NCBI RefSeq assembly: GCF_964355755.1
Contig: NC_092672.1
Location: 38,622,501 to 38,686,500 of the forward strand
Direction of reading: 5' to 3'
Source: Antedon mediterranea
Lineage: Eukaryota > Echinodermata > Crinoidea > Comatulida > Antedonidae
DNA length: 64,000 nucleotides
Shown: positions 2,558-58,472 of the stretch, piece by piece
Numbering within the stretch: the stretch's first letter is position 1
Layout of the letters: each line of letters opens with the position of its first letter
Translations under genes and position numbers: made by a program
Notes under the pieces: generated by a model
Database searches by the model: none
What the model was told of the DNA's origin: nothing
The model's input: the letters and a program-made list of their open reading frames with translations, nothing else

Positions 2558-5500
2558 TTATGAGGTTTCCTCAGAGACTGTTTCATGTAGAACAGAATGA
2601 TGGCCATAGTAATCACTAAGATGCCTTGTACCCTTCCATGAATCTGAATTTGCTCGCAACTCCATTCTAGGTGTGGTCTCAAACAAAGCGGCACGGTTCT
2701 GTTCTTCGCCCTTCTTCACCCAGTGTCCATAAATGTGGAACGCACACCCGTCTAAAACTTTCCGTACCATTTTAACACCGTAAGGGTTTGCCTTTGCTGA
2801 ATTTAAATTTACTGGCCGTTGTGAGTTTAATTTTTGTAACTTGCAGACACTTCTTACAGTAATTATTGCAGCCTGAAATAAAATAAATTTGGTTTTAAAA
2901 TAGATTTAAAATGCTTTACGATATTTTGAATATTCCCAAATATTGCTGTCGGTCAGCGTCCATTCTGTCAACCATTGGGTCATATAGTATCCATCTTCTG
3001 ATGGACTTCCGTTCCTTCCTATCCTGGATACAGTATTTATATTCAACAGTAACTGTATATTTATTGATATCCAAATTTAAGTTTGATTCACTGATTGATG
3101 TTTCCAATATTTAATTTTAAATTTCAACTTTTATTATTATTATTGTTTACCTTAAATTTCCTACGAGCCATAAAGAACTCGTCTGCCTGTTTGACCTCAA
3201 AGTGGAAGAAAGGGTGGTTAATTGCCTCCTCTGCTGTGTACCTCTCTTTAGGATTCACTACTAATAATTTAGATATCTGTCAAAATGGAAAAAAACAAAC
3301 AAATTGTTATATGTCGGAGAACCAATATTCATAGGTCACATATTAAGAAAAAAATTATAATACAATAATTACCAATTCTTTTGGTGCTTGAGATATATCA
3401 TCCCATTCTGGACTTCCAAACTTATATCTGCCATCCATTATCGAACGGAGTAGAACCATCTTTTTACGATGCCAGAAAGGTGGAAGGCCAACTAATCTGT
3501 GTAAAGATCATACATAGAATCTAGTACACAATGAACTCTACTATAAAATAAACTAGTTACCTGTACACGTTTATTAAGAATTAAATATGCCCAATTGATA
3601 GTAGACTATTTATATACGATTTGATTGTGAATTGTCATAGGAGGTGACACTATTATATTAATCATGGATAATGTCATTCAACTTTGACCTCTACCACATC
3701 CTCCTTTGGACACAGTGGTGTTATTTAATGCACTGTTTCATCTATATTCTTATAATTAAATCTTAATGCTTATTTATTTGCTAAAATGTTTTTAAACAAA
3801 GTATGTCACTAATTTTAATTTGTCGGCAGATTGGATGTTATATGTATACATTATTTAGAATGGTTATCAAAAATAAGGCTACGCCTACAGATTTATACAA
3901 CATGTCATACCTACCAAACTCTTTGATAAGCTTTCCACTAAAAGTTGGTGTCAAGCAACCAGTAGACTCCAAGGTCATAATAAATTTACTTTATATTAAA
4001 TGTGTATACTGTAATTATTTTATTTATTATAGTCATTTTTATTTTTATAACAAGGATGTAACATTAACTATGATGATTTATTTTATCCATAAACTGAAAG
4101 TCATCCTTACTTACTACCTTAAGCTCTGTCTACAATATTAAACTAGTTTGATGTGTGATATGCCCAAATATGGTAGTGATATGCTCAAACATAGTAGTGA
4201 TATGACATTATCATGTCTATATATGGAAACATCACATTTTGTTGTCACATAAAGTTTGATAGTGTAGACAGAGCTTTAGTTTTCCACTGGTTTATAATTT
4301 ATGAACTCTATACATTGAAACCAAATGAAATTATTTTCTCATTCTTACCTGTCAATTTTACTTAATAACTAAATTTTATTTGGTTAATTAAAGAAAACTG
4401 CCAGGTTGAAAGTACTAGTAAATAGAAATGAATACAAGAAATGGTCTAAAATAATATTAGGGTATATGGTTAATACTTACAATGTATACATAATAACACC
4501 ACATGCCCAAAGGTCGACCTCAAAGCTATAACCTTTGACTTTATCGACTTTCATGTTGCACTTTAAAACCTCTGGTGCTAAGTAACCTGGTGTGCCACAC
4601 AAATCTTGTTAAAATGAAAAGTTTCAGTTTAATAAGACAATTTTTATTATTAAATATGGTAGACAATCCAATACACAAAATAATAGGCTATTAGCTACAC
4701 TATACAAAGACATTTTAATCTTTCTTATCTTATTAATTTTTACTGTTAAACTTAATTTTTAGTTCATACTTAAATTAAGAATAAGCAAACCTGTTAAGAG
4801 CTTCCCGTCTTGAACTTGAGCAGCAAAACCAAAGTCTGATATTTTAATGTTTAGATTTTCATCAAGGAGAATGTTTTCAGGCTGATAAAACACAAATATC
4901 AATTTTAGAAATTAGTCTTTACCCACTATGTACAAGATCAAAATGAATGGAAAGTAAATATGTGGAAGAAAGTTGACTACAAAACACTGATGATCATAAA
5001 CTTATTTCAAATAAAAACATAAGAATGTAACAAACATCCAAGATCACAGTTTGGAGGACCAAGTATATGCAAAAGAAAAAACAACAAATACAAAACACTT
5101 GTAAATAAAAGCAAGTGTTTTTTTCAGACAAAATGTGAGTAGTCCTAACTATTCTATTGTTTAATTGCTTTACCTTTAAATCACGATGGACTATTCCATG
5201 ACTAATGTGAGTAATCTTAACTATTCTATTGCTTACTTTACCTTTAAATCACGATGGACTATTCCATGACTAATGTGAGTAATCTTAACTATTCTATTGC
5301 TTACTTTACCTTTAAATCATGATGGACTATTCCATGACTAATGTGAGAAATCTTAACTATTCTATTCCTTACTTTACCTTTAAATCACGATGGACTATTC
5401 CATGACTAATGTGAGTAATCTTAACTATTCTATTGCTTACTTTACCTTTAAATCATGATGAACTATTCCATGACTAATGTGAGTAATCTTAACTATTCTA

Positions 5501-8500
5501 TTGCTTACTTTACCTTTAAATCACGATGGACTATTCCATGACTAATGTGAGTAATCTTAACTATTCTATTGCTTACTTTACCTTTAAATCACGATGGACT
5601 ATTCCATGACTAATGTGAGTAATCTTAACTATTCTATTGCTTACTTTACCTTTAAATCACGATGGACTATTCCATGACTAATGTGAGTAATCTTAACTAT
5701 TCTATTGCTTACTTTACCTTTAAATCACGATGGACTATTCCATGACTAATGTGAGTAATCTTAACTATTCTATTGCTTACTTTACCTTTAAATCACGATG
5801 AACTATTCCATGACTAATGTGAGTAATCTTAACTATTCTATTGCTTACTTTACCTTTAAATCACGATGGACTATTCCATGACTAATGTGAGTAATCTTAA
5901 CTATTCTATTGCTTACTTTACCTTTAAATCATGATGGACTATTCCATGACTAATGTGAGTAATCTTAACTATTCTATTGCTTACTTTACCTTTAAATCAC
6001 GATGAACTATTCCATGACTAATGTGAGTAATCTTAACTATTCTATTGCTTACTTTACCTTTAAATCACGATGGACTATTCCATGACTAATGTGAGTAATC
6101 TTAACTATTCTATTGCTTACTTTACCTTTAAATCACGATGAACTATTCCATGACTAATGTGAGTAATCTTAACTATTCTATTGCTTACTTTACCTTTAAA
6201 TCATGATGGACTATTCCATGACTAATGTGAGAAATCTTAACTATTCTATTGCTTACTTTACCTTTAAATCACGATGAACTATTCCATGACTAATGTGAGT
6301 AATCTTAACTATTCTATTGCTTACTTTACCTTTAAATCACGATGGACTATTCCATGACTAATGTGAGTAATCTTAACTATTCTATTGCTTACTTTACCTT
6401 TAAATCACGATGGACTATTCCATGACTAATGTGAGTAATCTTAACTATTCTATTGCTTACTTTACCTTTAAATCACGATGGACTATTCCATGACTAATGT
6501 GAGTAATCTTAACTATTCTATTGCTTACTTTACCTTTAAATCACGATGGACTATTCCATGACTAATGTGAGTAATCTTAACTATTCTATTGCTTACTTTA
6601 CCTTTAAATCACAATGAACTATTCCATGACTAATGTGAGTAATCTTAACTATTCTATTGCTTACTTTACCTTTAAATCATGATGGACTATTCCATGACTA
6701 ATGTGAGTAATCTTAACTATTCTATTGCTTACTTTACCTTTAAATCACGATGAACTATTCCATGACTAATGTGAGTAATCTTAACTATTCTATTGCTTAC
6801 TTTACCTTTAAATCACGATGGACTATTCCATGACTAATGTGAGTAATCTTAACTATTCTATTGCTTACTTTACCTTTAAATCACGATGGACTATTCCATG
6901 ACTAATGTGAGTAATCTTAACTATTCTATTCCTTACTTTACCTTTAAATCACGATGGACTATTCCATGACTAATGTGAGTAATCTTAACTATTCTATTGC
7001 TTACTTTACCTTTAAATCACGATGGACTATTCCATGACTAATGTGAGTAATCTTAACTATTCTATTGCTTACTTTACCTTTAAATCACGATGGACTATTC
7101 CATGACTAATGTGAGTAATCTTAACTATTCTATTGCTTACTTTACCTTTAAATCACGATGGACTATTCCATGACTAATGTGAGTAATCTTTACTATTCTA
7201 TTGCTTACTTTACCTTTAAATCATGATGGACTATTCCATGACTAATGTGAGAAATCTTAACTATTCTATTCCTTACTTTACCTTTAAATCACGATGGACT
7301 ATTCCATGACTAATGTGAGTAATCTTTACTATTCTATTGCTTACTTTACCTTTAAATCATGATGGACTATTCCATGACTAATGTGAGTAATCTTAACTAT
7401 TCTATTGCTTACTTTACCTTTAAATCATGATGGACTATTCCATGACTAATGTGAGTAATCTTAACTATTCTATTGCTTACTTTACCTTTAAATCACGATG
7501 GACTATTCCATGACTAATGTGAGTAATCTTAACTATTCTATTGCTTACTTTACCTTTAAATCACGATGGACTATTCCATGACTAATGTGAGTAATCTTAA
7601 CTATTCTATTGCTTACTTTACCTTTAAATCACGATGGACTATTCCATGACTATGTATATATTGCACGGCTTCTAGTATCTGCTTCATTAAATTTCTATGG
7701 AAGAAGAAAAAATAAACTGTACTTCTTAAAATATATTAATTTATTTATTAATTAAATATTTTATTACAGTATGAGCACAATTTAAAGCTCTGTCTACACT
7801 ATCAAACTTTATGTGACAAACAAAATGATGATGTCATATTACTACCATATTTGGGCACATCACACTTTTTTTTTGTCAAACTAGCAAACAGACAAAGCAT
7901 ACAATGATGACTCTTGCTTTATGCTATACTGTAACACGTACTGTATTTTTTATTTTAAATAGATACGATAATGTATTGTTCTTTTACCTAGTTTTTTTCT
8001 CTGATAATGCAACAACTTTAGTAAGATAATCAAAAAGTTCACCACCAGTACATCTGGAAAAAAAGTAATATTATAAATGAGCCAAACACATAAGATACTG
8101 TGAGTAATCTATATAATGATTCATGATATATTAATAGCTGGACTAATATTAACAATACTAGAATAAGTCAACAATATTGTCCGGATTTGGGTAGGCTTCT
8201 AATATCAGTATGGGTTTTTTTTTATAAAAACTATTTTATTATGTAAAACTATGTGGTAACTGTATTGATAATTGCTTTTAAAAATTACTGAGATGAGTCA
8301 TACGCAGGGTCATAGGTTGTTTCAAATTTGCATCTGAAATGTTGTCACTTTAGTGTCAACATCACTCTCTTTCACATAATGTTGCACTTCCACACCCTTG
8401 TTAAACAGAAAGCCATAAAGAGTTGGTACTTAGTTGGTACTTACAATTCAAAAACCAGGAAGAAATATGTTGGAGATTCAATAAAATCATTTAACAAGAC

Positions 8501-9510
8501 TGAAACAAAACCAAACAATCATAAATATCAATACTTATTTTGTATTACTTAAACACAGCACATGAGTCAAATACATTATTTTTTACTATTCATCAATTAT
8601 TGGGTGACCTGGTAAGGTCAAGACATAACTTTGCATCGATGTTTTAAAAAATAGATCCAAAAACGACCAGGGTAATAATATGTACAGTGCTTAAGCTCTG
8701 TCTACACTATCAAACTTTATGTAACAAAAAAATATGCCCATATATGGACACATGTCATATCACTACCATATTTGGGAATATCACTACTGTACTATATTTA
8801 GGCACATCATAATTTTGTTGTCAAACTAGTTTGATAGTGTAGACAGATCGTTTAAGGGTTTCACAAATCCAGAATATTAATATTATTATTTGTGTACAGT
8901 GCTTACCAATGTGATGATGACCAGATAATTTTCTTAAAATTGCAACTTCGTTTCTGTACTCTATTTTGAGTTCTTCAATTCCAATCTCATCAACATTTTC
9001 AGAGACAACGTCGATAATTTTGACAGCAAATTCTGTCTGCGAGTCTTTCTCAATGCATCGTCTTACAGTACTGCTGATACCGCTAATAAACAAAAGAAAT
9101 TGTTTTTAAATTTGGGGAATTTGAAATGTTTGTTTTTTATTGAATAATAACATGTACAATTTTCTAACCATTAATAATTAATAAAAAATAAAAAAGTTTA
9201 TTGTGGTTGAAATACAAAAATAACTCTCCAAATAGTACTAGGACTCTCTGAAAACCGGAAACTCTCCCAAAATCAGACTTTTTCTTGAGGAGTAAAAGGT
9301 TCCAAATTAATTCATAAACACATTCCAAATATCAGACTTGACTGCTTCTTTTAACTGTATAGATGATGCACAGTTTATTTAGGTGGTTAAAAGATACAAA
9401 ATATTTTCTTACCGGCCTAGGATTTGCTTTGGTACATATTTAGAGTAGAGAACAGATCCATACGCTACTAATGAAAGGTCATCATCTGTTTCATCGGTTC
9501 CAATTGCCAT
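2558..9510 (-). CDS. PHKG: Phosphorylase b kinase gamma catalytic subunit (10 coding exons)
   Basis: Serine/threonine kinase that phosphorylates and activates glycogen phosphorylase as the catalytic subunit of the phosphorylase kinase holoenzyme (family knowledge). Coding exons in transcript order: 9510-9413, 9082-8907, 8499-8445, 8053-7988, 7694-7622, 4881-4791, 4604-4481, 3496-3373, 3276-3151, 2872-2558. All junctions are AG/GT, phases agree, and the 1248 bases give about 415 aa, close to vertebrate PHKG1/2. Visible motifs are the glycine loop [17 protein letters not shown] with the ATP lysine, GELFDYLT, the catalytic loop [25 protein letters not shown] and [12 protein letters not shown]. 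The C-terminal 104 residues sit on one exon and correspond to the regulatory, calmodulin-binding tail of the family. The end of the HRDLK exon and its splice donor are repeated 37 times in the following intron. One gene copy cannot be assigned to PHKG1 or PHKG2. Confidence 0.95.
4121..4276. mobile_element. CArG-box MITE, copy 1
   Basis: Short inverted-repeat element with ends AAGCTCTGTCTACA and TGTAGACAGAGCTT. It lies in a PHKG intron. A perfect CC(A/T)6GG box (CCAAATATGG) is at 4164-4173. There is no coding capacity. It belongs to a family with about 14 copies in this window. Confidence 0.85.
5132..7652 (-). repeat. 68-bp minisatellite, 37 copies of a PHKG exon end plus its splice donor
   Basis: The unit recurs at an exact 68-bp spacing: the same word starts at 5181 and at 7629, 2448 bases or 36 periods apart. 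Read on the gene strand, each unit holds the last bases of the coding exon 7694-7622 (codons H-G-I-V-H-R-D-L-K) followed by the GTAAAG splice donor and about 34 bases of intron. The true exon is the rightmost unit, and 36 further copies lie in the intron. Variants are few: a synonymous change in the valine codon, CGT to CAT in the arginine codon (a CpG decay change), and single-base changes in the intronic part. Homology starts just upstream of AGTCATGG, so each copy also has an AG directly before the exon-like piece. The left edge (5132-5175) is degenerate. Confidence 0.97.
7785..7900. mobile_element. CArG-box MITE, copy 2 (right end degraded)
   Basis: Left end AAGCTCTGTCTACACTATC is intact and the right end is degenerate. 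It contains CCATATTTGG. It lies in a PHKG intron between the minisatellite exon and the next exon upstream. Confidence 0.75.
8693..8852. mobile_element. CArG-box MITE, copy 3
   Basis: Both ends are recognisable (AAGCTCTGTCTACACTATC and its inverse), with internal CCATATATGG and CCATATTTGG boxes. It lies in a PHKG intron about 50 bases from an exon. Confidence 0.85.
9222..9340. repeat. Dispersed repeat (family also at 54034-54260)
   Basis: Contains the words actctctgaaaaccgg, aaactctcccaaaa and cagactttttcttgag, which recur in the same order at 54034-54260. I recognise no coding sequence or terminal repeat, and the class is unknown. Confidence 0.6.
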
Positions 9511-10312: not shown

Positions 10313-12070
10313 TTACGGTGGCCCACAACTGTCACGCACACTATAACACAGAATCACACAATTAAAGAAGGAATTACACAATTAAAGAAGGAATCACACA
10401 ATTAAAGAAGAAATCGCACAATTAAAGAAGAAATCGCATATAAACAAAAGAAAGCATGAAAATATAAAACGAAATGCACAAATAAAGAAGAGCTAAGCAC
10501 AATTAAAGAAGTCCGCAACAAATTCGAAAGCTCCTCGCACAATTAAAGAAGTCCGCAACAAATTCGAAAGCTCCTCGCACAATTAAAGAAGTCCGCAACA
10601 AATTCGAAAGCTACTCGCACAATTAAAGAAGTCCGCAACAAATTAAAGTACAGTAGTCCGTATGGAACGCCATCGCTGCCTCCGGCAGCAAACTTAATTC
10701 TATTCGGCTCTTTTACTATTACGTTCGGCTCTTTTAGCATTCGGCGCATTTCTATTCGGCCCATTTACCATTACGTTCGGCTCTTTCAGCATTCGGCGCA
10801 TTTCTATTTGGCCTATTTACCATTACGTTCGGCTCTTTCAGCATTCGGCGCATTTCTATTTGGCCCATTTACCATTACGTTCGGATCTTTCTGTATTGAT
10901 TTGGCCCTTTTTTATTCGGCTCTTTCTGCATTACGTTCGGCTCTTATTGATTTGGCCCTTTTTTATACGGCGCAATTAAATTCTAACCTTTTACATGCGG
11001 TCAAATGGAAGAAAATCAACGGCTGGAAATGAGTCTATGAAAAGTTTACAAAACAAATAGATGCAGCATGTAGAGTGTTTGGTTGGTTGAATTAAATGAA
11101 TTTGAAAGCTATTTCAATATGACTAATCATGTTATTGACATGATTAATGTGTTAGAGAAGTTGCAATTGTCCCACCTTATTGACCATTTTGAGAGAGAAA
11201 AGGTTGATTTATGGCATAGGCTAGCTAGGCCTAGCCTAGTGTCAGCCTAACATTTAATAATAATAATTTACCCTTTCTCGCTCAAAATTTGTTAAAAGAT
11301 GAATTAATTTTAGGTTATTCAACACATCTTTAATCGGTTGGCTACTCATGGTTGGCGCCATGATGATGAAATGTTTGTAAACTTTTCATAGAATCATTTC
11401 CAGTCGTTGATTTTCTTCCATTTGACCCCATGTCAAAGGTTAGATTTTAATTGCGCCATATAAAAAAATGCCGATTTAAAAAGAGCCCAACGTAATGCAG
11501 AAAGAGCCGAATATAAAAGGGCCGAATCAAAAAGAGCCGAACGCAATGTTAAATGGGCCGAATAAAAAAGAGCCGAATGCTGAAAGAGCCGAACGTAATG
11601 GTAAATGGGCCAAATAGAAATGCGCCGAATGCTGAAAGAGCCGAACGTAATGGTAAATGGGCCGAATAGCGCCGAATGGTAAAAGAGCCGAACGTAATAG
11701 AATTAAAGCTTGCTGCCGGAGGCAGCGATGGCGTTCCATACGGACTACTGTACTTTAATTGTGCGAGGAACATTCGAATTTGTTGCGGACTTCTTTAATT
11801 GTGCGAGGAGCTTTTGATTTTGTTGCGAACTTCTTTAATTGTGCGAGGAGCTTTCGAATTTGTTGCGGACTTCTTTAATTAATTGTGCTTAGCTCTTCTT
11901 TAATTGCGCGTTTCTTTATTTGTGCATTTCGTTTTATATTTTCATGCTTTCTTTTGTTTATATGCGATTCCTTCTTTAATTGTGTGATTTCTTCTTTAAT
12001 TGTGTGATTCCTTCTTTAATTGTGTGAATATGATTTATATAGTGTGCGTGACAGTTGTGGGCCACCGTAA
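10313..12070. mobile_element. Foldback DNA transposon, 1.76 kb, about 0.7-kb inverted arms
   Basis: The ends are TTACGGTGGCCCACAACTGT and its exact inverse, flanked by a 4-bp direct repeat ATCT (10309-10312 and 12071-12074). The left arm (10313 to about 11060) and right arm (about 11370 to 12070) are inverted copies. The outer part is made of short direct repeats around 'acaattaaagaag', then repeats containing 'gtccgcaacaaattcgaaag', then repeats of 'cattacgttcggctctttc' type. A central loop of about 310 bases is not symmetric. No transposase is visible, and the open frames inside are products of the internal repeats. The superfamily cannot be assigned from the sequence alone. Confidence 0.9.
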
Positions 12071-22247: not shown

Positions 22248-25200
22248 TCAATCAAAGTGTGGTGGCCATGAACGTGATAGCTCCTCATGCTTTGATTCTG
22301 GTAACCATTCTTTTAAGGCTGCAATTAAATCTACAACAAATGGAAATATAATTGTTAAACATTATTAGCTATTTTCAGTAAATTTTTTATATAATGACTA
22401 GCAATGTTTTTCAGTGACCTTTACCCTCTTGTATATAAAAGGAAGCAAGTAAAGTTAGTTGTCTTTGAATAATAGTATGTTTATTATATTGTTAATGTTT
22501 CTCTACTGAACTACTTTGGAAATCAATGCTTTAGCACTGAAAGTGTCATTCAGTATAAAGACATAATAAATAAATTCTTATTTTATATCAAACTACTCAG
22601 TTTGAAGGTATTTACACCACATACGAAAGAATACAAAAGCCTAAATAGAATAAATGAATAATAACAACATGTGTCACCGAACGAAACTGTAACATGTTAT
22701 TACAACATTATTCTAATTGAAACCAAAGTAACAAAATGTGTCACTGAGTGAAACTGTAACATGTTATTACAACATTATTCTAATTGAAACCAAAGTAACA
22801 ACATGTGTCACTGAGTAAAACTGTAACATGTTATTACAACATTATTCTAATTGAAACCAAAGTAACAACATGTGTCACTGAGTGAAACTGTAACATGTTA
22901 TTACAACATTATTCTAATTGAAACCAAAGTAACAACATGTGTCACTGAGTGAAACTGTAACATGTTATTACAACATTATTCTAATTGAAACCAAAGTAAC
23001 AACATGTGTCACTGAGTAAAACTGTAACATGTTATTACAACATTATACTAATTGAAATCAAAATAACAACATGTGTCACTGAGTGAAACTGTAACATGTT
23101 ATTACAACATTATTCTAATTGAAACCAAAGTAACAACATGTGTCACTGAGTGAAACTGTAACATGTTATTACAACATTATTCTAATTGAAACCAAAGTAA
23201 CAACATGTGTCACTGAGTGAAACTGTAACATGTTATTACAACATTATTCTAATTGAAACCAAAGTAACAACATGTGTCACTGAGTAAAACTGTAACATGT
23301 TATTACAACATTATACTAATTGAAATCAAAATAACAACATGTGTCACTGAGTGAAACTGTAACATGTTATTACAACATTATTCTAATTGAAACCAAAGTA
23401 CACATGTTAAGACTTACAATGGTTATTTTCTTGACATGCTTGTATTAGTGTGTCTTTAGAGTCTACTCTCTTAATAGCTAAAGTATTTAGCATTGTTTGC
23501 GTTCTTGGCTGTAACCTATAAAAAACATAAATTGCTGTTAGTTATATCATTCATATAGAACTCTTTAATGTTATTGTTGTAACATGATCCTTTACAAGAG
23601 ATTTCAGAAATAATGGATACAGAAATGAGGCATAACTGCGTTCTTAGTTCCAATTGTATAATGACATTGTTCTTGCTGTTACACTTACAATTCTTGTCTC
23701 AAATTTCAAGGCTGAGAAGATTACAATTGCTAAGATGGAAATGACCTTTAATGTACTGAGTACAATATAAATATCTTAAGACACAGTAGAATAGAGTTTT
23801 ACATTAGTATATGATAAGTACATTACAGTTAGAAGGAAAATGGCAAAATTAGCACTGTGGTCATGTTACAAGAGTTGTCAAAATAATATAGATTATCTGA
23901 TAAAACCCCTAGAAAGTAGGAAGCCTTTTGCCTGAGTACAATATTAATATTCTAAGACACAGTAGAATAGAGTTTTACATTAGTACAGTAGGAACAACAA
24001 ACTACTTACTTGGCCCAAGTCTTAATCATAGTACTTGGAGGTGATAGTAAGCAAGAAGTGTACTTCTTAAGTTCAGAAAAAACCTAAATTATATATAAAA
24101 TAGTAAATATATTAATGTAAAATGTTTAATGCTTTTTATTAACCAATTATATTGAAACCCTGTTAATTAAAAAATCATTTATACATAATAAATGTATGTG
24201 ATCTTTTTCTTCTTCTGGTATCATGTCTGGTTGCAAACATTGATGCCCTTAGTTCTCTGATGCAGTTTAAATGAAATTGTTGTTGGTAAGCTGAGTGTTA
24301 TTGACTAATTTAAATGTTTTCATTTTAAAATCTACAATTAATGTCAGAATGAAGTACTGCTAGTATTTCATATATTTGTTTATTATACTTGCATACATTT
24401 TATAAATACAATTGAAAACTCACCTGGCCTTCCAAAAGAAAGCGAGCAAACCATTTGAATCTATCAGGTGATGGTGGAAATTCCAGCTCTTGGCTTGGAA
24501 GCTGCCATGCATTGCGTCCTTCAAAATATTCAAGATACTTATAATTTGAAAACATTTAATAAAAAGTAATACAACAATAGTCAACACATAGTTATACCTT
24601 TTAAAAACAAATTTTAATAAATAAATTACCAAATGTTGCAGTCCTGTGACATCGGACTGTGCCAGTGATTGGATCGTATCTTGGAGATGGTTTTTCTTGA
24701 GGTTTGGAGAAAGTGCAGAGTTGGGGTAGCAGCATTGCTAGCCAGCCTGGTTCAATAGCTATCACACCTGAAATATATGTAGATATTAAGTGAATCATTT
24801 ATATACATGATTCTGTTAGCATAATAAAATATAAAAAAATGATTTAGAGGTCAGATCAGGAATCTCTATGGAAACAGCTTTGATGACCTACATACCATGA
24901 CCATGCAGAACACTCAAGAAAACTTGAAATACTTTTATTTGATATGCTAGAAATCATTGCAGAAACAAGAAAATATGTTTGACTGCAAAATAAAATGCAT
25001 TCTGGGAAGTTTTTGTTCATAACACATATTCTACTCTTTCATGTATGAAATGCATTCTGGGTAAGATTGTAGAATTCATAACAATATACAACAAGTACAT
25101 AAACCTTTCATGAAATGCATTCTGGGAAGACATTGCAATGTACATATTCTAACCTTTCATGTATGGCTTTGTTGTTTCAATTATTTCCTGGTAAACTAGA

Positions 25201-40636: not shown

Positions 40637-43600
40637 ATGACCTCAAATGTGACGTTGTGGGTAAAATCAGACCCATTCACTTTTGGAACACTTCAAGTAT
40701 CACCACATCCAAAACTTTCTCTACATGTAAGTAAGAGAAGAGGTATTCATGTGACTTATTTAATGTAGGCAACATTAAAAATAAAACAAAACATGAAAAA
40801 AATAAAACTTCAAATAGGCCATTTCAAAGTTTATAATAAAGTTAATCACTCCTGTAAAAAAAAAATTATATTTTCAATTAAGACAAATTAAAATCCTTAA
40901 ACATAAAATAGAATACTATAATTTACTCAAAATAAAAAAAAAATCTTTATTTTTTTGTAGTATCTAAAGAAAATAGCAAGCTATGTGAAGACTAAGGGGG
41001 ATGCAGGATACCCTAGGATAAGTTTTCCAGTATGGAAGCACATAGCATGTAATAAGCTGACAATGGCTGAAGATCTAGCCTGGATGTAAGTATTGCTACT
41101 GAAGCACATAGCATGTAATAAGCTGACAATGGCTGAAGATCTAGCCTGGATGTAAGTATTGCTACTGAAGCACATAGCATGTAATAAGCTGACAATGGCT
41201 GAAGATCTAGCCTGGATGTAAGTATTGCTACTGAAGCACATAGCATGTAATAAGCTGACAATGGCTGAAGATCTAGCCTGGATGTAAGTATTGCTACTGA
41301 AGCACATAGCATGTAATAAGCTGACAATGGCTGAAGATCTAGCCTGGATGTAAGTATTGCTACTGAAGCACATAGCATGTAATAAGCTGACAATGGCTGA
41401 AGATCTAGCCTGGATGTAAGTATTGCTACTGAAGCACATAGCATGTAATAAGCTGAAAATGACTGAAGATCTAGCCTGGATGTAAGTATTGCCGATAAGT
41501 ACAAAAAACCAAGACTTTACAAATCATTAAAATGCAGGAAACACAAAGAGTTATTGACGTCTCCCAGACCAGTCTCCCTATTATTATATATTTAGTATAT
41601 ATGGGGTTATAAAGGCATTGGCCTAAACTTTTCACTTACATCAAGTATCAAGTGAGTAGGTAGCCTTCCGCTACTTTTTCTGTCTAAGCTAAAAGCTTGG
41701 CTTTGTAGAAAAGTCGGTATTCAGTCCATAACTTTGTGTTTTTTAAGGTATTTTGAAGGCTATGATTTATTGAGTCACTATGAACCTGAAGAAAGGCTTC
41801 AGCAAGCAGAAGCCTACACAAATTGTAAAACTACCAAAGAACAAGGTAACATTTTGTTCATTAAATTAAATTGTGCATTGTAGTAGTGCAACCTACCTTT
41901 TTTTGCTGATTTTAATTACACATACAGACTACAGTATGTTGTGACTAGTGCCTTGTAAGCACATTTGAGTTTTGAGTTTTTTTATTATGCAATCAAAGGC
42001 AATTAAAATACTGTAAATAAATATAAAACTTAAATAGAAAAACATTTGCGCAAATTTAGTGGATTTGTGTGCAATATAAATTTGCTTATTTACATATTTT
42101 TGGCACAATCCATTCTTTTGTGAATTTCATGTTTATTATTAATGTTATTACTGTATTTGACACTAGATTCACTGCGAAACAAAACATCAGTAGATACGTT
42201 GCAATTCCTGCTCTACCTGTTCATCCAACAAGTTCACAAGATATCTTTAAGATCCTCATTGATGACTGGTGAGGAGTATCCTTCTCAATAATGTCATAGG
42301 TATTTTATAATGCAGTCTAGGTCCCACATTGGAAGCATGAGCATCTATATGGCATGATGCATTGTGGAAATTGCATCACCAACACGTTTTTAACCTTTAA
42401 CTAAAACTAGAGAGCCTATTTGTAAACTGTACTGTATACCCAAAACAATCAGAAATTTCAACTTTAACGAAAGATCGGAGGTCACACAAAATATTACTCT
42501 CATGATTATTGGAAGACTTGTGAGGTCTTGTAATTCACTATCTATCTATCTATATTTCCATAACAATTTATTTTAGGTGGCCAACACGAGCAAGATCACC
42601 TGATTTGTCTGGTAAAACATCGTCTACATCAAAGGTATTCACTTTCAATCAATTCTTATAAACACCAACATTGTTAAGGCTTCTTTTATAAAATGAAATA
42701 AAAGATCTTACAGACATTTCACTATAATAAATTAACTATATTGTAATTTAACAGGTTTGATCAAAGCTTATTCATTGTAAAAAGTGTCGACATTGTACTT
42801 GAATAATGTGTTTCCCATTTTCTTTGTTTGTTTGTTTCCTTCATCTTCCTGGGTAGATAAGCACACAGGTAAAGTGAACTCCCTTTGTTGTTTAATCATT
42901 TCCATGCAGTTTACATTAAGCATGCTTATTCAAAGAATTCCTATCAATGAATAACACACTTTTTTGATTCAGATTTGTTTATCCATACTTAAAAACTATT
43001 CCATCCTCTTGATGTCTCTTGCATGATTATTTATTACTAAATTAATTCTAACTCAATTTTTGTCTTTCTGGTGGTAAGAAAAATGTTTTTGATTTAATTT
43101 ATTTCTTGTTGATTTGTATGTTTCAACACACATATAGAGTAATACTGTAGTACATAAGCATACAGGATATTTATCTTTGCTTGTGGTATTTGTTATACCA
43201 GTTTCAAACTAACTGGACTGAGCATGAACATCTATTTGTGTTCAAATCATGAGTTCAAATCCTGTCTTGACACCAGAATATCTCAGCCTAACTAACAAGC
43301 CCAATCCAAAATACTTAGACATAGCATCTTATGATCTTAAGAGACTTCTCCTGTTAGGACATTTTTTATCTACAATTCTTTGCCAAGTACAGTACATACT
43401 GTATTATTTTTTTTTTCTTTCTTTCATTCTTTTATTCAATTTTTCACACTTCAAAAATAATACAAGTTATGTGAAACAATGATAACAGGTATCATAGTAA
43501 TAAACAATAAGGTAATCAAACTAATTAAAAAAAATATATAGAGATACTTGTACTTTAAAAAAACAAAACAAAGAAGTGTGAACGGAGGTCAAATAAGTAT

Positions 43601-46600
43601 GATACTTTAAGCTTGACCCCCTAACAAGACTGCAGGTTACGGTACATGACAAAAAACATTTTTAAAGAAATACATTTTTACTTCTGTTTCAATTTATTTT
43701 GCAGCATTATACACATTTAATAACATGATTTATATTATTTTTTATCTTTCTTTCTTAACAAAGTGATATTAAATTTGTATTGAATTATCACAATATAATT
43801 TATTTTGTTAATTACATTTTGAGTTAAATATGAAACCTTTTTAATAATACAACATTATTAATATTTCCTATCAAGTAGCTGAGTGTCATCATTCAAAGCT
43901 TCTATGAAACAATAGAATTGTAGTTCTGTCAATAAAAATAATGTATTCTGCATTTTGATAGATAGACTACCAAAGGAATATTTGATATAATGAATGACTC
44001 CATCTTAAGCTCTGTCTACACCATCAAACTTTATGTGACAACAAAATGTGATGTGTCCATATATGTATATACACATTTTTTTTGTCATCTAGTTTAATAG
44101 TGCAGACAGAGCTTAAAGTTATGTACAAATCACTCATCATATGAATGAATGAATCCATCTTAGGTTATGTGTACTTAGTTATGTACTTAAATCACGCATG
44201 TATACTCTTGTATTGTAGGGTCTTGATGAAAACACTTGCTTAACGTTCATACTTAACAATCTCAATGACCTCATGATTCTTCTAACAGATACAGGTATGT
44301 TTATTTGATAGTGAATTAAATACTCTAAACATGGAGTTGTAAAACTCCCTGCTCTAATAGGCAAATCCAAAAGGCCATGTAACCCCCCAGTCTTTAAACA
44401 GTGATTGGGTTCGCTTGTGACAATCCTGGCTTTTTGTTTCATTATATATTTTTATGTATTCTGTTGTAATTGTAATGAGCCGATATTGAATAAATCAAAA
44501 AATCAAATCAAACCCCCTAAGTACAATTACTAAGTACAAAGTGCTAAAATCAGTATACTTTATCATTGCAGTAACTTATAGTGGTACAACCAATGACGTT
44601 TTATTAACAATAGAATCAATACAAGCACTGGGATTGCTTATATCTGGGTCCACTGATGGCTGCAAGTAAGTTAGTACTTAAAATATCAAAACACTTGTCT
44701 GGTTTGAGGCTGTAAGTAAATTTATCCATGTATGGAAATAGACTTTTAGGATGTTCCCTCATCCTCTTTAATGCAAAGCTTTAAGATCATCACAAATGTC
44801 TTGATGTTTAATTAGTATCTTGTCATCTAATGATGCAATGATACTGATATTAATTATAAGATCATCACAAATGTCTTGATGTTTAATTAGTATCTTGTCA
44901 TCTAATGATGCAATGATACTGATATTAATTATAAGATCATCACAAATGTCTTGATGTTTAATTAGTATCTTGTCATCTAATGATGCAATGATACTGATAT
45001 TAATTATAAGATCATCACAAATGTCTTGATGTTTAATTAGTATCTTGTCATCTAATGATGCAATGATACTGAAATTAATTGTAAGATCATTACAAATGTC
45101 TTGATGTTTTATTAGTATCTTGTCATCTAATGATGCAATGATACTGATATTAATTATAAGATCATCACAAATGTCTTGATGTTTAATTAGTATCTTGTCA
45201 TCTCATGATGCAATGATACTGATATTAATTATAAGATCATCACAAATGTCTTGATGTTTAATTAGTATCTTGTCATCTAATGCAATGATACTGATATTAA
45301 TTATAAGATCATCACAAATGTCTTGATGTTTTATTAGTATCTTTTCATCTAATGATGCAATGATACTGATATTAATTATAAGATCATCACAAATGTCTTG
45401 ATGTTTAATTAGTATCTTGTCATCTAATGATGCAATGATACTGATATTAATTATAAGATCATCACAAATGTCTTGATGTTTAATTAGTATCTTGTCATCT
45501 AATGATGCAATGATACTGATATTAATTATAAGATCATCACAAATGTCTTGATGTTTAATTAGTATCTTGTCATCTAATGATGCAATGATACTGATATTAA
45601 TTATAAGATCATCACTAATGTCTTGATGTTTAATTAGTATCTTGTCATCTAATGATGCAATGATACTGATATTAATTATAAGATCATCACAAATGTCTTG
45701 ATGTTTAATTAGTATCTTGTCATCTAATGATGCAATGATACTGATATTAATTATAAGATCATCACAAATGTCTAATGTCTTGATGTTTAATTAGTATCTT
45801 GTCATCTAATGATGCAATGATACTGAAATTAATTATAAGATCATCACAAATGTCTTGATGTTTAATTAGTATCTTGTCATCTAATGATACAATGATACTG
45901 ATATTAATTATAAGATCATCACAAATGTCTTGATGTTTAATTAGTATCTTGTCATCTAATGATGCGATGATACTGATATTAATTATAAGATCATCACAAA
46001 TGTGTTGATGTTTAATTAGTATCTTATCATCTAATGATTCAATGATACTGGTATTAATTATAAGATCATCACAAATGTCTGGATGTTTAATTAGTATCTT
46101 GTCATCTCATGATGCAATGATACTGATATTAATTATAAGATCATCACAAATGTGTTGATGTTTAATTAGTATCTTGTCATCTAATGATGCAATGATACTG
46201 ATATTAATTATAAGATCATCACAAATGTCTTGATGTTTAATTAGTATCTTGTCATCTAATGATGCAATGATACTGATATTAATTATAAGATCATCACAAA
46301 TGTCTTGATGTTTTATTAGTATCTTTTCATCTAATGATGCAATGATACTGATATTAATTATAAGATCATCACAAATGTCTTGATGTTTAATTAGTATCTT
46401 GTCATCTAATGATGCAATGATACTGATATTAATTATAAGATCATCACAAATGTCTTGATGTTTAATTAGTATCTTGTCATCTAATGATGCAATGATACTG
46501 ATATTAATTATAAGATCATCACAAATGTCTTGATGTTTTATTAGTATCTTGTCATCTAATGATGCAATGATACTGATATTAATTATAAGATCATCACAAA

Positions 46601-49600
46601 TGTCTTGATGTTTAATTAGTATCTTGTCATCTAATGATGCAATGATTGTTTATATTAATTTTCTTTTCATATTTTCTTAAGAACAATTCAATCTCTTGAT
46701 GAGATAACTATGCAGCAACAAGTTCAAGTTAAATGTGGCTACTCAAAGGTACGTAAATTTCCTTTTCAATCTCTATATAATATTTTGACTCATACATACT
46801 GATACATTATTGTATGCGAAAGGGAAAAAACAGTGAGCCTTCCCAATTTATATTGTAACAATTATATATTATGTATCTTCTTGGTCAAAATAAATGTGAA
46901 TATGAATGAATGTATGTATTCTACTCCTACAATTTGAATTATTTGTTAATCATACCGTTTTCAGATTTCTAAAACATTTTCATTTCGTGCATTTGAATCA
47001 TGGTTACGGTCCAACTTGGCTGATAATCCATTTGGTGTTGGTAACTGTATAACATCTGGACGGAGACTATCATGGCCAACCACAGGTACCATTTTAAGTC
47101 AATATTTTTATTTTATATTTTTTTTAAAGACAGATAAATTCAAAACTTCCCAGTCATGCTGAAAGATGCTGAAAGATAATTTATTTATTGTTAATGCATT
47201 TCAATTTGCTTTCTATGTAGTTTCGCTGCTAATAATACATTTAAAAAAAAGATATTAATTACATACTTCACTTCTTTCAAATGAGTTGTAATGTAAGCAG
47301 AAATTACATCAGATCATCACCTAGTTAATTTCCCTCGTGGAAGATTCAGGAGGAAACAAACCCAAGTATCATTTCTTTCACAAAGGATTAGAAGATTCAC
47401 TTTTTCACGAGTGATTACATGTTGGAATAGTCTGCCAACCGAAGTTGTCATCTCTGAAACCATCAACACATTTAAATTTGTTGTAGAGATTAAAAAGGCA
47501 CACACCAACTAAACTTGCGTTGAGCGTGCTTTCACAAGTTGGGTTGAGGGGTGTTATGTTTAAGCAAGTTGGGTTGAGGGGTGTTATGTTTAAGCAAGTT
47601 GTTTATTTCTTTCAGGGTGTGATTCAGAAGGCAAGACAGAGAGTGGATCAAAACGTGGTAGAGTTGCCACAAATGCACATTTTACCACTAGAGAGTAAGT
47701 GAGCACATTTAATACATCTTGTTAATAGTTTTTATTATGTATAAGCATCACCTAAATATTTTGACATTTTCTTTTCAGTCAAAAGCTAATTATTATCTCT
47801 CAAGTTTGTAAGCAAACATTAGCAAAGGTAGGAAGAAAGAGAAAACTAATATGTTTTGTAAATTGCTTAGTTATTGTAGATACAGACACAAGAAATCGCC
47901 ATAGTTAATCTAACACATATTCAATGTTAACCCTAGTAAAAATAGTGTGATGGAATTCTTATTCTTCATTGTAGATGTCAACTACATTGACTGATTCAAG
48001 GGTCAAAGTTCATCGTTGTCACTATGCATTCATGTATTTATTATCACCATTAAGGTAAATGCAATCGACATTCAAAGAAACTTTATATATCTACTTTTTA
48101 ATAATTATATAGTTATGGTTGGTTTGTTTAAGCTGATTCTTTGGTGTATTTTTATACAGTGGTCATTTTTTGAGAGGCTGTAAACTAAACTGGTTTTTTT
48201 TTTTATATGCTGTTTAAAGACAAAGAGATTAACTCAAAACTTTCTAGTCAAACTGAAAGATAATTTTTATCTATAATAGTTTTGGGTTTTTTCATCTAGA
48301 TATGTTAGTATTGAAAAGTGTCGTCATTCCACCATTGTTCTTGGACCTGTTGCTACCACTGTTCATGTGACCTCTTGTGAAGATCTCACTATCATTACAC
48401 CGTGTAGGAGATTCAGTATCAGGTAACATTTTAACACCCGATTCCCAGTGCTATATCTCCACATACTATCTATTACTGAAGTATCATACAAATATTTGGT
48501 AATACAGCATCTCATTCACATGCTGCTCTATTTACTATGATGAGCAGCATTGATTCTATCATTGTGTTTGCATTGAACCAAACAAAGGAACATGAAATGT
48601 AAAGCTTTGTCTACACTATCAAACTTTATGTGACAAACAAATGTGATGTGCCCATACGGACATGATGTCATATCACTACCATATTTGGGCATGTCACTAC
48701 CACATTTGGGCATGTCACTACCACATTTGGGCACACATTTTGTCAAACTAGTTTAATAGTGTAGACAGAGCTTTAGAATTATGGAAATATATGCCTAATC
48801 AAGCAACATCTACAACTTATTGATTGATTTAAAATGCTGTCTCATTTCCAATTTGTGTTTTGGGAAATCCCTTTTTTCTATTATGATATCATTTCCTTTG
48901 TACGTTTCAGTGGCTCCACATTATGTACTGTGCACCTTCTGACACCAACTAGACCTCTCATACTCGGAGGCAATGACAGTATTACTCTAGCACCTTATCA
49001 CACACACTACCCCATGCTACAAGACCACATGGCTAAGTCTGGCATCGCAGGCTTACCGAATCTATGGAATAACCCACTGTGTGTTGGTAGGTTATTCTAA
49101 TTATTAAATATTTATTCCTTCGTTTTCTCCACATAATTTGTTTTCATTTAAATGTACTGTACTGTTAAACTTTTATTTTCAAGCAAAATGATTGTTTGGC
49201 AAATGTGAATGTGACGCCATGTTTACCAATACAGTAATCCACATGATAAACAAGCTCTTTTTAAGATGTAACTACAGTATGGTTGCAATGATGGCTTCCA
49301 TTTTAAGATGTAACTACAGTATGGTTGCAATGATGGCTTCCATTTTAAGATGTAACTACAGTATGGTTGCAATGATGGCTTCCATTTTAAGATGTAACTA
49401 CAGTATGGTTGCAATGATGGCTTCCATTTTTTTCCTCTTTTATTTTCTAATAATGTTTGTTAATCCTCCACCAGGTCTTGATCATCAAGAGTCCTTTCCT
49501 GTTTATTCATTCCTACCTCCTCAAGATTTCTTCATGTTTGTCATTCCATTTGAGTTAGAAGGCGACACAAAGGTAAACAAAAAATAATTCTAAATCTCAT

Positions 49601-50886
49601 TTTAATAACTTATACAGTACGCTAGATTTTAATAATTGAAACTCTATGCTATGTAACTACCACAGAATTTTTAACAGCTGTATTTTGTGACAACACCAGA
49701 AAATGATTACTGTAAATCAGACTTTAGAGTGGTTTACAGTATTAATACTTTAATGTATTTAGAATGGTGTACAGTATTAATACTGTAATGACAGTATTGA
49801 TACTGTAGTGTATTTAGAATGGTGTACAGTATTAATACTGTAATGACAGTATTGATACTGTAGTGTATTTAGAATGGTGTACAGTATTAATACTGTAATG
49901 ACAGTATTGATACTGTAGTGTATTTAGAATGGTGTACAGTATTAATACTGTAATGACAGTATTGATACTGTAGTGTATTTAGAATGGTGTACAGTATTAA
50001 TACTGTAATGACAGTATTGATACTGTAGTGTATTTAGAATGGTGTACAGTATTAATACTGTAGTGTATTTAGAATGGTGTACAGTATTAATACTGTAATG
50101 ACAGTATTGATACTGTAGTGTATTTAGAATGGTGTACAGTATTAATACTGTAATGACAGTATTGATACTGTAGTGTATTTAGAATGGTGTACAGTATTAA
50201 TACTGTAATGACAGTATTGATACTGTAGTGTATTTAGAATGGTGTACAGTATTAATACTGTAATGACAGTATTGATACTGTAGTGTATTTAGAATGGTGT
50301 ACAGTATTAATACTGTAATGTATTTTTAGGAGCTTCCTTGGAGTTTACCGTCTGAATATGAAGAGGGTTTATTGACAAGACAAAAACAGATAAAGAACTG
50401 GCAAAAGACTGTCAAAGATGCTAAGTTGAATCCAGCTCAGAAGCAGCAATTCCAGACATTGGTAGAGAGTAGGTTTCAGGTACGTTTATGAAATGTTTAT
50501 TTTGCACTGACTTCGGCAAATTTAAGTGCACAATAGGGTTTATACTTAGTTATCATCACTTAAAATGATGTAAATACAAAGATGCAGGAGTTTATCAATT
50601 AGTTCCATTAACTCCTCTGCCTCACATTGCCATTTTTCTATAAGATAAGATTTATAAAGAGCACATATCCACAAAGTGCTCAAGTCGCTTCTGAAAACCA
50701 TAAAAAATACTAACTTTGAAACTAAAACAGCAAATTTTAAAAAAACCTGAATAGTATAGTATATATATATATATATTCTCATAAATATTTCTACTGTATC
50801 TTTGTTGATAGGCATGGCTTGTAGAATCTGGACATAAGAAACAAGTGGATGGTCTTGTACCAGTGCCTTCATCTCCTACAAAATGA
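40637..50886 (+). CDS. TBCCD1: TBCC domain-containing protein 1 (17 exons)
   Basis: Centrosome- and Golgi-positioning protein related to tubulin cofactor C and RP2 (family knowledge). Exons: 40637-40726, 40961-41085, 41748-41845, 42167-42275, 42577-42634, 44219-44294, 44572-44665, 46682-46748, 46965-47085, 47616-47694, 47779-47827, 47975-48054, 48300-48422, 48911-49086, 49475-49572, 50330-50479, 50812-50886. Phases agree throughout; about 555 aa (human 557). Recognisable stretches are LWVKSDPFTFGTLQVSPHP, KISLRSSL, GEEW, FRAFESWLRSNL, IEKCRHSTIVLGPV in the C-CAP/TBCC beta-helix, and HTHYPMLQDHMAKSG. The start is the ATG giving this conserved N terminus; an upstream ATG at 40600 is out of frame. 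Exon 2's end and splice donor are repeated 7 times. A possible 12-base microexon lies at 42857-42868. Confidence 0.97.
41034..41491 (+). repeat. 66-bp minisatellite, 7 copies of TBCCD1 exon 2 end plus splice donor
   Basis: The first unit is the real end of exon 2 (codons from W-K-H-I-A-C to D-L-A-W) with the donor GTAAGTATTG. Six further copies follow at an exact 66-bp spacing (starts 41038, 41104, 41170, 41236, 41302, 41368, 41434). Copies 1-6 are almost identical and the last has two changes. Each copy keeps the donor, and each later copy also has an AG just before the exon-like part (tactgaag). Confidence 0.97.
44007..44116. mobile_element. CArG-box MITE, copy 11
   Basis: Both terminal repeats are present (AAGCTCTGTCTACACCATC and GCAGACAGAGCTTA). 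The internal part is shortened and keeps only ccatatatg. It lies in a TBCCD1 intron about 100 bases before exon 44219-44294. Confidence 0.8.
44778..46650. repeat. 75-bp minisatellite, about 25 copies, in a TBCCD1 intron
   Basis: The unit contains 'tcatctaatgatgcaatg', 'actgatattaattataag', 'atcatcacaaatgtcttg' and 'atgtttaattagtatcttg'. The period is 75 bp with rare 3- to 6-base length variants (about 45280 and 45770). It ends about 31 bases before the acceptor of exon 46682-46748 and contains no exon sequence. Confidence 0.97.
47290..47515 (+). mobile_element. LINE ORF2 C-terminal fragment
   Basis: A plus-strand frame reads NFPRGRFRRKQTQVSF, then CWNSLPTEVV, ETINTFKF and a stop near 47512. 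The W-N-S-L-P motif followed by a short helix is typical of the very end of CR1/RTE-like ORF2 (family knowledge). It is heavily 5'-truncated, in a TBCCD1 intron. Confidence 0.7.
47524..47602. repeat. Two-copy tandem duplication near a TBCCD1 acceptor
   Basis: 'caagttgggttgaggggtg' plus 'ttatgtttaag' occurs twice (about 35-bp period) with a partial third copy, ending about 15 bases before the acceptor of exon 47616-47694. Confidence 0.85.
48602..48773. mobile_element. CArG-box MITE, copy 12
   Basis: Ends AAGCTTTGTCTACACTATC and TAGTGTAGACAGAGCTTT. Contains CCATATTTGG at 48679-48688 and a duplicated 'ggcatgtcactaccacattt' segment that lengthens this copy. It lies in a TBCCD1 intron. Confidence 0.85.
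49258..49428. repeat. 42-bp minisatellite, 4 copies
   Basis: The unit is 'ttttaagatgtaactacag' followed by 'tatggttgcaatgatggc' and 'ttcca'. It ends about 45 bases before the acceptor of TBCCD1 exon 49475-49572. Confidence 0.95.
49735..50325. repeat. 55-bp minisatellite, about 11 copies, abutting a TBCCD1 acceptor
   Basis: The unit is 'tgtatttagaatggtgtac' plus 'agtattaatactgtaatg' plus 'acagtattgatactgtag', with internal palindromes (agtattaatact). One unit is shortened at about 50045-50080. The last partial unit runs into 'tgtatttttag', the acceptor of exon 50330-50479, so the array supplies the sequence around the branch site of that exon. Confidence 0.96.
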
Positions 50887-56000: not shown

Positions 56001-58472
56001 TCGCTTGATGTTAATGGGGTAGGTTAACAAGCTAAATACCTTATATGACTCTTTTCTTCTTTTTCAAAACTATACATTACTGTTATTAGCTACACATTTT
56101 AAATATCTCTTTGGCCAAAAAAATTAACATTTCTAATATCGGTTGCATTTATCTTGCTATACAATTTAAACTTTTAAAATAACAGAGACTTCATACTCTA
56201 AAGGCAGCTTGCCACATGCCAAAAAGGTCAGCTATTCCACTACCAGCAATGTATCCCAACCCACTGTAAAGAAAATAAAAAATTGTTATAGATATAATAT
56301 AATAGTGATTAACGGCAGAACATTTCCACCTAATCTCTTTTATTCATCTCATTAAAACTATACACATAAGAAAAAGAAGTAAAAAAGAAGATGAAAGGGG
56401 CCTCCAAGATAACTATTATAATTGTGATAGCCCACTAAAAACTAGTTACATTATTAGATAATAAATAAATAAAAAGCCTGTATAGACGAATATACCATGA
56501 TATTTGTTACTACTGCCATGTTTTATTCATTTTTTGCAATGTTTGTATTTGTTGCTTTTGTATTTTACCCGTTGGTGGTGGTGTGCTGTTTTTTGTATTT
56601 TACCCGTTGGTGTTGTGCTGTTTTTTGTATTTTACCCGTTGGTGTTGTGCTGTTTTTTGTATTTTACCCGTTGGTGTTGTGCTGTTTTTTGTATTTTACC
56701 CGATGGTGTTGTGCTGTTTTTTGTATTTTACCCGTTGGTGTTGTGCTGTTTTTTGTATTTTACCCCTTGGTGTTGTGCTGTTTTTTGTATTTTACCCGTT
56801 GGTGTTGTGCTGTTTTTTGTATTTTACCCGTTGGTGTTGTGCTGTTTTTTGTATTTTACCCGTTGGTGTTGTGCTGTTTTTTGTATTTTACCCGTTGGTG
56901 TTGTGCTGTTTTTTGTATTTTACCCGTTGGTGTTGTGCTGTTTTTTGTATTTTACCTGTTGGTGTTGTGCTGTTTTTTGTATTTTACCCGTTGGTGTTGT
57001 GCTGTTTTTTATATTTTACCCATTTCATCATATTTTAATGTTTTATATACGTGACAAGCAGAGTTCTTGATGGAATAAAATAATTGAATAGAATAGGATC
57101 AGCAGTGGACGCGCATTGTTAACCATTCTCTATTCTTAGCATGGTGAGATTCATAAGTGCTTCCACAGTACCTTCCCACAGGAATAGCAAAATAAAACAA
57201 CATTAACATTTGTGTTCTTCTGTTTCCAGTAAATAAATCAGCTATAATTGTTGAAGCAACTGTTGTATAACTTGCTTCACCAACACCGACCACTGCACGC
57301 ATGAACAAGAATAAAGAATATTTCTAGAAGGGAATCACAAACATTCACAAATTAAATTTCATTAGTTTAAAAATCAAAGCATTTTAAAACAGTTAAAAAA
57401 AACAGGACTGTAAATTAATTGATATAAAACGATTTAAAATGTAGATGATTGGTTAAAGACTTTTCTATTACTCCAGAAATTGTGATATATGCCACGGGTG
57501 GGTCTCAGATGAGTAGGCCTGTAACTCATACTATTGTGATATATGCCACGGGTGGGTCTCAGATGAGTAGGCCTGTAACTCATACTATTGTGATATATGC
57601 CACGGGTGGGTCTCAGATGAGTAGGCCTGTAACTCATACTATTGTGATATATGCCACGGGTGGGTCTCAGATGAGTAGGCCTGTAACTCATACTATATTA
57701 ATAGATAATTCTTACATCACTTGGTACAAAGGATCCAGCGAGGGTTGACCCTGACCACACACATATTCCAAAAATTAATATCATCTTTCTTGAATAACGG
57801 TCGCCAAGGTAACCAAAAACAGGTGAAGTGACCATGTAACCAACTATGAAGACGGTCTGCAGTAAACCACTCTCAGAATTCACATTACTTTTATCCAATT
57901 TAAAAAATTCTTGTATTTCTGGCAGATTGGCTGAAAAAACAATAAACCTAAAATATTTACTATTGTGAGTGCCTTTTCATATTTGTATATATAGGCCTAG
58001 GCCTACCTACCTATATTTTATAATATATTTATAATAAATAATTTATATTAGGCCTAGGCTAGGCCTAGGCCTAGGCCTAGGCTATAATTAAATTAAATAT
58101 TATAAATTAATAAAACACACATTCTAGGTTAAGGTTATATTGGCCTAGGCTAAATAAAAAGATAAACAAATCACCTGCTATCGTATATCTATCCATGTAA
58201 TTCAGAAGGTTTATAGCAAATAGGATAACCACTGTAATGTAGGCCCTAGTCATAGATATCGGAGGGGGCTCACGGTACACTGCTTCAGCAGAACTTTGCC
58301 GCGATGAGCCATTATCACTTTCTCTTTCCTCGTCTGGAGGCTGGGCCTGGCGGTTAACATTGACCATATTACCAGGGCGCGACACAAAAGGTTCTGTTTC
58401 CTCCATAATTTCAATATACTCTCCTAAACGAGTTGATGTCGACGAATTGGTTTCAGCATATCTGTCGTTCAT
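53085..58472 (-). CDS. SPNS1: Spinster homolog 1, MFS lysosomal transporter (11 exons)
   Basis: Multi-pass lysosomal/late-endosomal transporter; vertebrate SPNS1 exports lysophospholipids from lysosomes (family knowledge). Exons in transcript order: 58472-58175, 57930-57716, 57323-57172, 56263-56197, 55946-55807, 55653-55531, 55236-55041, 54643-54578, 54369-54271, 53591-53417, 53185-53085. Phases agree; about 543 aa (human 528). A cytosolic acidic N terminus precedes TM1 ([22 protein letters not shown]). MFS motif A is [11 protein letters not shown], followed by [20 protein letters not shown] and [14 protein letters not shown], which are diagnostic of Spinster proteins. The C-terminal tail is short and acidic (YESDSD). 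SPNS1 is preferred over SPNS2/3 on overall resemblance, but an invertebrate single Spinster may be co-orthologous to all three. Confidence 0.95.
54034..54260. repeat. Dispersed repeat, second copy of the 9222-9340 family
   Basis: Shares 'ctctctgaaaaccgtaaac', 'tctcccaaaaccagac' and 'cttgagg' with 9222-9340, with the core phrase occurring three times in a row. It ends about 10 bases from SPNS1 exon 54369-54271. Confidence 0.65.
54700..54957. repeat. Imperfect tandem triplication in an SPNS1 intron
   Basis: About 2.5 units of 80-100 bases containing 'agtttgtatcacttttaatc', 'attccataggccttcag' and 'gtgtatattactatcaca'. Confidence 0.8.
56555..57020. repeat. 32-bp minisatellite, about 14 copies, in an SPNS1 intron
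   Basis: The unit is 'ttggtgttgtgctgtttttt' plus 'gtattttacccg'. The period is 32 bp with few variants. All three plus-strand frames stay open through it, giving hydrophobic pseudo-proteins that I do not regard as genes. Confidence 0.96.
57476..57697. repeat. 54-bp minisatellite, 4 copies, beside an SPNS1 splice donor
   Basis: The unit is 'tattgtgatatatgccacg' plus 'ggtgggtctcagatgag' plus 'taggcctgtaactcatac'. Copies are identical. It ends 18 bases from the donor of exon 57930-57716, on the intron side. Confidence 0.96.

Follow-up and report, generated by a model that had tools for sequence, protein, structure and literature searches.

A 37-copy minisatellite spanning an exon end and its 5' splice site in a PHKG gene of the crinoid Antedon mediterranea

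Results

Anatomy of the exon-end array in the PHKG gene

The window is the whole stretch of 64,000 nucleotides that was analysed (C3, or NC_092672.1, positions 38622501-38686500 of 38956436); its features are listed in Table 1. When the exon at 7694-7622, joined with its neighbouring exons, is used as a phmmer query against the PDB, the best match is the PHKG testis/liver kinase (2y7j, E=7e-55), and other PHKG chains come next. From within the last codons of this exon into the intron, TRF finds, in this 64-kb window of one assembly, a tandem array at 5132-7652 with a period of 68 bp, 37.0 copies, a match of 97% and a score of 4817, which is by far beyond chance.

In the orientation of the transcript, which is the minus strand, copies 1 to 36 occupy 7651 to 5204 and keep an exact register throughout. 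Copy 1 opens with the last 30 nt of the exon that encodes HGIVHRDLK, and the other 36 copies of the unit are intronic. This is in agreement with a preliminary description of this DNA, in which the true exon end was proposed to be the first of 37 copies at an exact 68-bp spacing, followed by 36 donor copies in the intron; the spacing is exact for copies 1 to 36, and copy 37 is diverged beyond its first 36 nt, with an apparent short indel. Such a diverged distal copy is as expected for the edge of an array, as array edges typically escape homogenisation. The donor AAG/GTAAAG is found in 37 of 37 copies, and the AG that had been described directly before the exon-like stretch of 28 nt is seen in each copy. 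In the region of the donor (7611-7624) there is in every unit a second, overlapping donor-like word, GTAAGC, located 5 nt past the true GT, which gives the array roughly two donor-like sites per copy. When the 354-Mb genome (an assembly of 18 contigs) is searched with the 68-mer, 37 hits are obtained, all at the PHKG locus, with no match elsewhere.

Table 1. Features of the window, numbered from its first nucleotide; a slash marks an exon-intron boundary.
Feature	Position	Strand	Basis
True PHKG exon, 73 nt	7622-7694	-	Sequence; phmmer versus PDB 2y7j; Pkinase in Pfam scan
Acceptor of the true PHKG exon, ...TTCTTCCATAG	7695-7705	-	Sequence
Copy 1: 30 nt of true exon end and donor AAG/GTAAAG; 38 intronic nt in all	7584-7651	-	Sequence
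Copies 2-36, wholly intronic, exact 68-bp register	5204-7583	-	TRF and copy alignment
Copy 37, at the distal edge; intact over its first 36 nt, including exon-like part and donor	5136-5203	-	Sequence
PHKG intron, 2740 bp; ~292 bp with the array collapsed to one unit	4882-7621	-	Sequence
Next PHKG exon, continues PENILLD	4790-4881	-	Sequence; Pfam scan; phmmer
Another exon-end array, 66 bp x 7, with a real exon end, ...EDLAW AT/GTAAGT, as its first copy	41035-41492	+	Sequence
67 bp x 11, starts ~10 nt inside the intron after the donor at 23417, DHX37-like gene; without exon	22662-23407	-	TRF and sequence
75 bp x 25, fills most of intron 44666-46681, TBCC-domain gene; without exon overlap	44782-46646	+	TRF and sequence
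42 bp x 4, inside intron 49087-49474, TBCC-domain gene	49259-49430	+	TRF and sequence
55-bp array, ends ~4 nt before the acceptor AG of intron 49573-50329; edge of 3' splice site, without exon	49736-50325	+	TRF and sequence
54 bp x 4, starts ~19 nt after the donor, MFS transporter gene; without exon overlap	57479-57696	-	TRF and sequence

Variation among the copies

In the 36 full copies six sites vary, with 24 variant cells in total. Of these cells, 7 are due to the silent valine change (GTC to GTT), and 9 concern the arginine codon of the HRD motif (CGT to CAT in eight, CGT to TGT in one); the remaining 8 are at three intronic sites. The earlier statement that the variation is mostly the silent valine change and CpG decay in the arginine codon is therefore a fair one, for a total of only six sites. 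The number of exact consensus copies, 19, and the presence of only nine distinct sequences also agree with the proposal that the array was homogenised recently. When nearer copies are compared with distant ones, no consistent trend of similarity with distance is found in the PHKG array. All six variable sites lie outside the donor nonamer, for which the chance is ~(59/68)^6 = 0.43, and the intactness of the donors is thus no evidence of selection.

Predicted consequences of splicing at later copies

As read from the sequence only, continuation past the first donor adds V and K before a stop, three codons on. The 28-nt pseudo-exon (AG/TCATGG...TTTAAAG/GT), whose length is not a multiple of three, reads in the same frame as SWNSPS followed by a stop. 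The use of a later donor or copy had been described as frame-breaking, and the outcome is in fact an immediate stop. As both readings hit a stop, any later copy, if used, would truncate the kinase in the catalytic loop, which predicts that the first donor is in use nearly always. The predicted RNA fold of the junction between exon and array is no better than that of shuffled sequences (z=+1.3).

Other exon-end arrays

The PHKG array is not the only exon-end array in this genome. In the same window, the unit of the 66-bp array comprises 51 nt of exon and 15 nt of intron, the donor included, and the exon that follows the array continues in frame (AW-MYFEGYDLL). A match to the TBCC family is obtained for the downstream part of the gene; considering their order and strand, both parts probably form one gene, such that the array belongs to a TBCC-domain gene. 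Further cases were obtained from contig C1, using a restricted motif search of this one contig, in which three spaced GGTAAGT words were required. Two of the seven GGTAAGT arrays on C1 are at true exon ends, being those of DHX8 (37 bp, ~23 copies, 29 nt of exon per unit; PDB match of 7e-46) and of eIF3L (29 bp, 3 nt of exon per unit), and a recognisable exon end is absent under the other five. At a locus of C1 (L070, C1:7682700-7686300), a 20-bp x 28 array starts ~35 nt past a donor-like site, and this site comes after an open, putatively lipoxygenase-like exon.

Placement of the arrays relative to donors

The window is rich in minisatellites, with 11 arrays of period at least 25 and at least 4 copies, which cover 12% of its length. 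For a unit of length p in an intron of collapsed length I, the probability that a random unit crosses the donor is (p-1)/(I+p-1). This was applied to the seven arrayed introns of the window with mapped donors, which have units of 42-75 bp and collapse to ~220-290 bp, the length of the DHX37 intron being assumed as 260. By random placement 1.35 donor crossings are expected and 2 are observed (P(2 or more)=0.40). Since the collapsed introns are short, it is unsurprising that some arrays start shortly after a donor or end just before an acceptor. Spaced GGTAAGT triples give 1451 hits genome-wide versus 2510 for the reversed word, and on C1 the GGTAAGT arrays number 7 and those of the reversed motif at least 14. 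Both tests are small, that of the introns having a sample of seven and that of the motif using one control motif, with the arrays counted on one contig. With the crossings at chance level, and with GGTAAGT not enriched, no process favouring donors is needed, and the idea of an amplification process that favours exon ends finds no support in these counts.

Discussion

Comparison with known systems

The PHKG array appears, from its sequence, to match the 'mirages' of amphioxus (the term was coined in cephalochordates), which are minisatellites spanning an exon-intron boundary, as described for Adh3 and the globins BflGb6 and BflGb9, with PGBD5 and troponin C as further comparisons (PMC3087553, PMC3902484); it would then be of a known but little-studied kind. 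Like a mirage, it is a head-to-tail minisatellite (68 bp x 37, 97% match), its unit lies across a genuine boundary of exon and intron, where the edge copy is the true exon, and the splice signals are repeated in the units (37 of 37 donors). In both systems the tandem units combine an exon end with a splice site, AG and GT signals lie within the repeats, and the interior is homogenised and an edge copy diverged. The difference is in size and regularity, as the BflGb6 mirage has 3-6 copies of ~150-160 bp, whereas the PHKG array has 37 copies, in a 68-bp register. Length instability is reported for the amphioxus mirages (PMC3087553, PMC3902484), and in the globin and Adh3 mirages regular splicing is intact (PMC3087553).

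The array also has features in common with the model in which an intron is gained when an AGGT-bearing segment is duplicated in tandem, as described for vertebrate ATP2A1 and potato RdRp (PMC4974935). In both there is a tandem duplication of an AGGT segment at a splice site, and the repeats could in principle supply new splice sites. The PHKG intron differs in having its own, separate acceptor (4882-4883), which lies past the array by ~250 bp. The sequence gives no sign of a new intron, and this reading was rejected.

Introners are dispersed intron-generating elements. The PHKG array resembles them in that its intronic units are numerous, alike and equipped with splice signals; its unit is tandem and the 68-mer is found at one locus only, so it is not an introner.

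Origin of the array

It is probable (at roughly 0.82) that the array is an intronic minisatellite whose founding duplication straddled the PHKG donor by chance and which was then subject to ordinary turnover, the first donor being used and the array being neutral. The founding tandem duplication would have happened at a small PHKG intron, across its 5' splice site, and the array would then have been expanded and homogenised by ordinary repeat turnover, such as slippage or unequal exchange. The original exon and donor remain first in the transcript, such that the duplication merely adds intron and the protein is unchanged provided that splicing uses the first donor. This explanation is favoured by the single-locus unit, the near-identical copies, the diverged edge copy and the minisatellite-rich window. 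Purely neutral donors would be expected to be slowly lost, and all 37 being intact is a point against neutrality, which with P ~0.43 says little. Of the earlier suggestion of a neutral by-product of amplification favouring exon ends, it is thus the neutral by-product that is retained, and not the preference for exon ends.

A mutational process aimed at exon ends, for example a duplication linked to transcription or splicing by which donors are preferentially amplified, could explain why one window has two donor-crossing arrays, with others that begin ~10 and ~19 nt past a donor, and why C1 has two further cases. Such a process is nevertheless unlikely, as small collapsed introns would by themselves yield about this number of crossings (1.35 expected, 2 observed) and such short distances, GGTAAGT arrays are outnumbered by those with the reversed motif, and five of the seven on C1 lie off any recognisable exon end. 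The array might instead act as a splicing control element or decoy, in which 37 donors would compete for U1 and splicing would now and then take a later donor or a 28-nt pseudo-exon, the resulting mRNA with a premature stop lowering PHKG output. The identity of all 37 donors fits with this, as does the fact that the VK-stop and SWNSPS-stop outcomes would be NMD-type products. Similar arrays in unrelated genes (TBCC-domain, DHX8 and eIF3L), the chance-like placement, the comparable amphioxus arrays without disturbed splicing (PMC3087553) and the RNA fold, which is not special, all argue against it, and a controlling role seems quite unlikely. The more specific proposal of a selected splicing throttle, in which the length of the array would tune the VK-stop share of PHKG mRNA and a change in copy number would provide heritable, adjustable expression, is very improbable.

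It is also conceivable that mis-assembly has inflated a few true copies, as assemblies are known to fail at tandem arrays, and the draft genome of amphioxus had one of the mirages mis-assembled (PMC3087553). The window has no gap (no N), the variants are irregularly spread along the array without a simple periodic block copy, and the contig is chromosome-sized (38.96 Mb), which makes an artefact highly unlikely.

Significance of the PHKG array

Seen as an intronic minisatellite, the PHKG array exemplifies the exon-boundary minisatellite in a large and clean form. One acceptor is followed by 37 identical 5' splice sites, such that the locus presents a natural competition between multiple donors. 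Each later donor choice would show itself by a premature stop, and the locus could thus be used to measure the reliability with which the first donor is preferred in living tissue. It also illustrates that, within one genome, the exon ends of several conserved genes can enter minisatellite turnover. The nine array copies with a mutated arginine codon adjoin the true HRD codon, and the catalytic loop could in principle be damaged by gene conversion from the array.

Additional observations

Other repeats are seen near the PHKG array. The regions 10351-10945 and 11479-12046 have 20/40/52-bp repeat sets that are mutual reverse complements, like the arms of a large inverted-repeat element. Several copies of a MITE-like interspersed element, which is short and has inverted ends (AAGCTCTGTCTACACTATCAAACTTT...), are found at 4124-4290, 7785-7890 and 8690-8855. 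The GC content of the window is mostly 28-41%. Searches for COX1 and for the GFP family give no match, the control of the GFP search being silent as well.

The 30 kinase loci considered have 5 arrays in 112 kb and, being mostly single-exon, are of no use for the boundary test; in two of them, both on contig C10 (L045 and L051), a 105-bp tandem array lies beside a single-exon kinase. TTAGGG-type telomere repeats are present at the start of C3. Between 19.6 and 25.1 Mb of the same contig, ~20 very similar-scoring myosin-head matches (profile scores of 342-408) are spread over 5.5 Mb, which suggests that a myosin gene has undergone a large expansion on C3.
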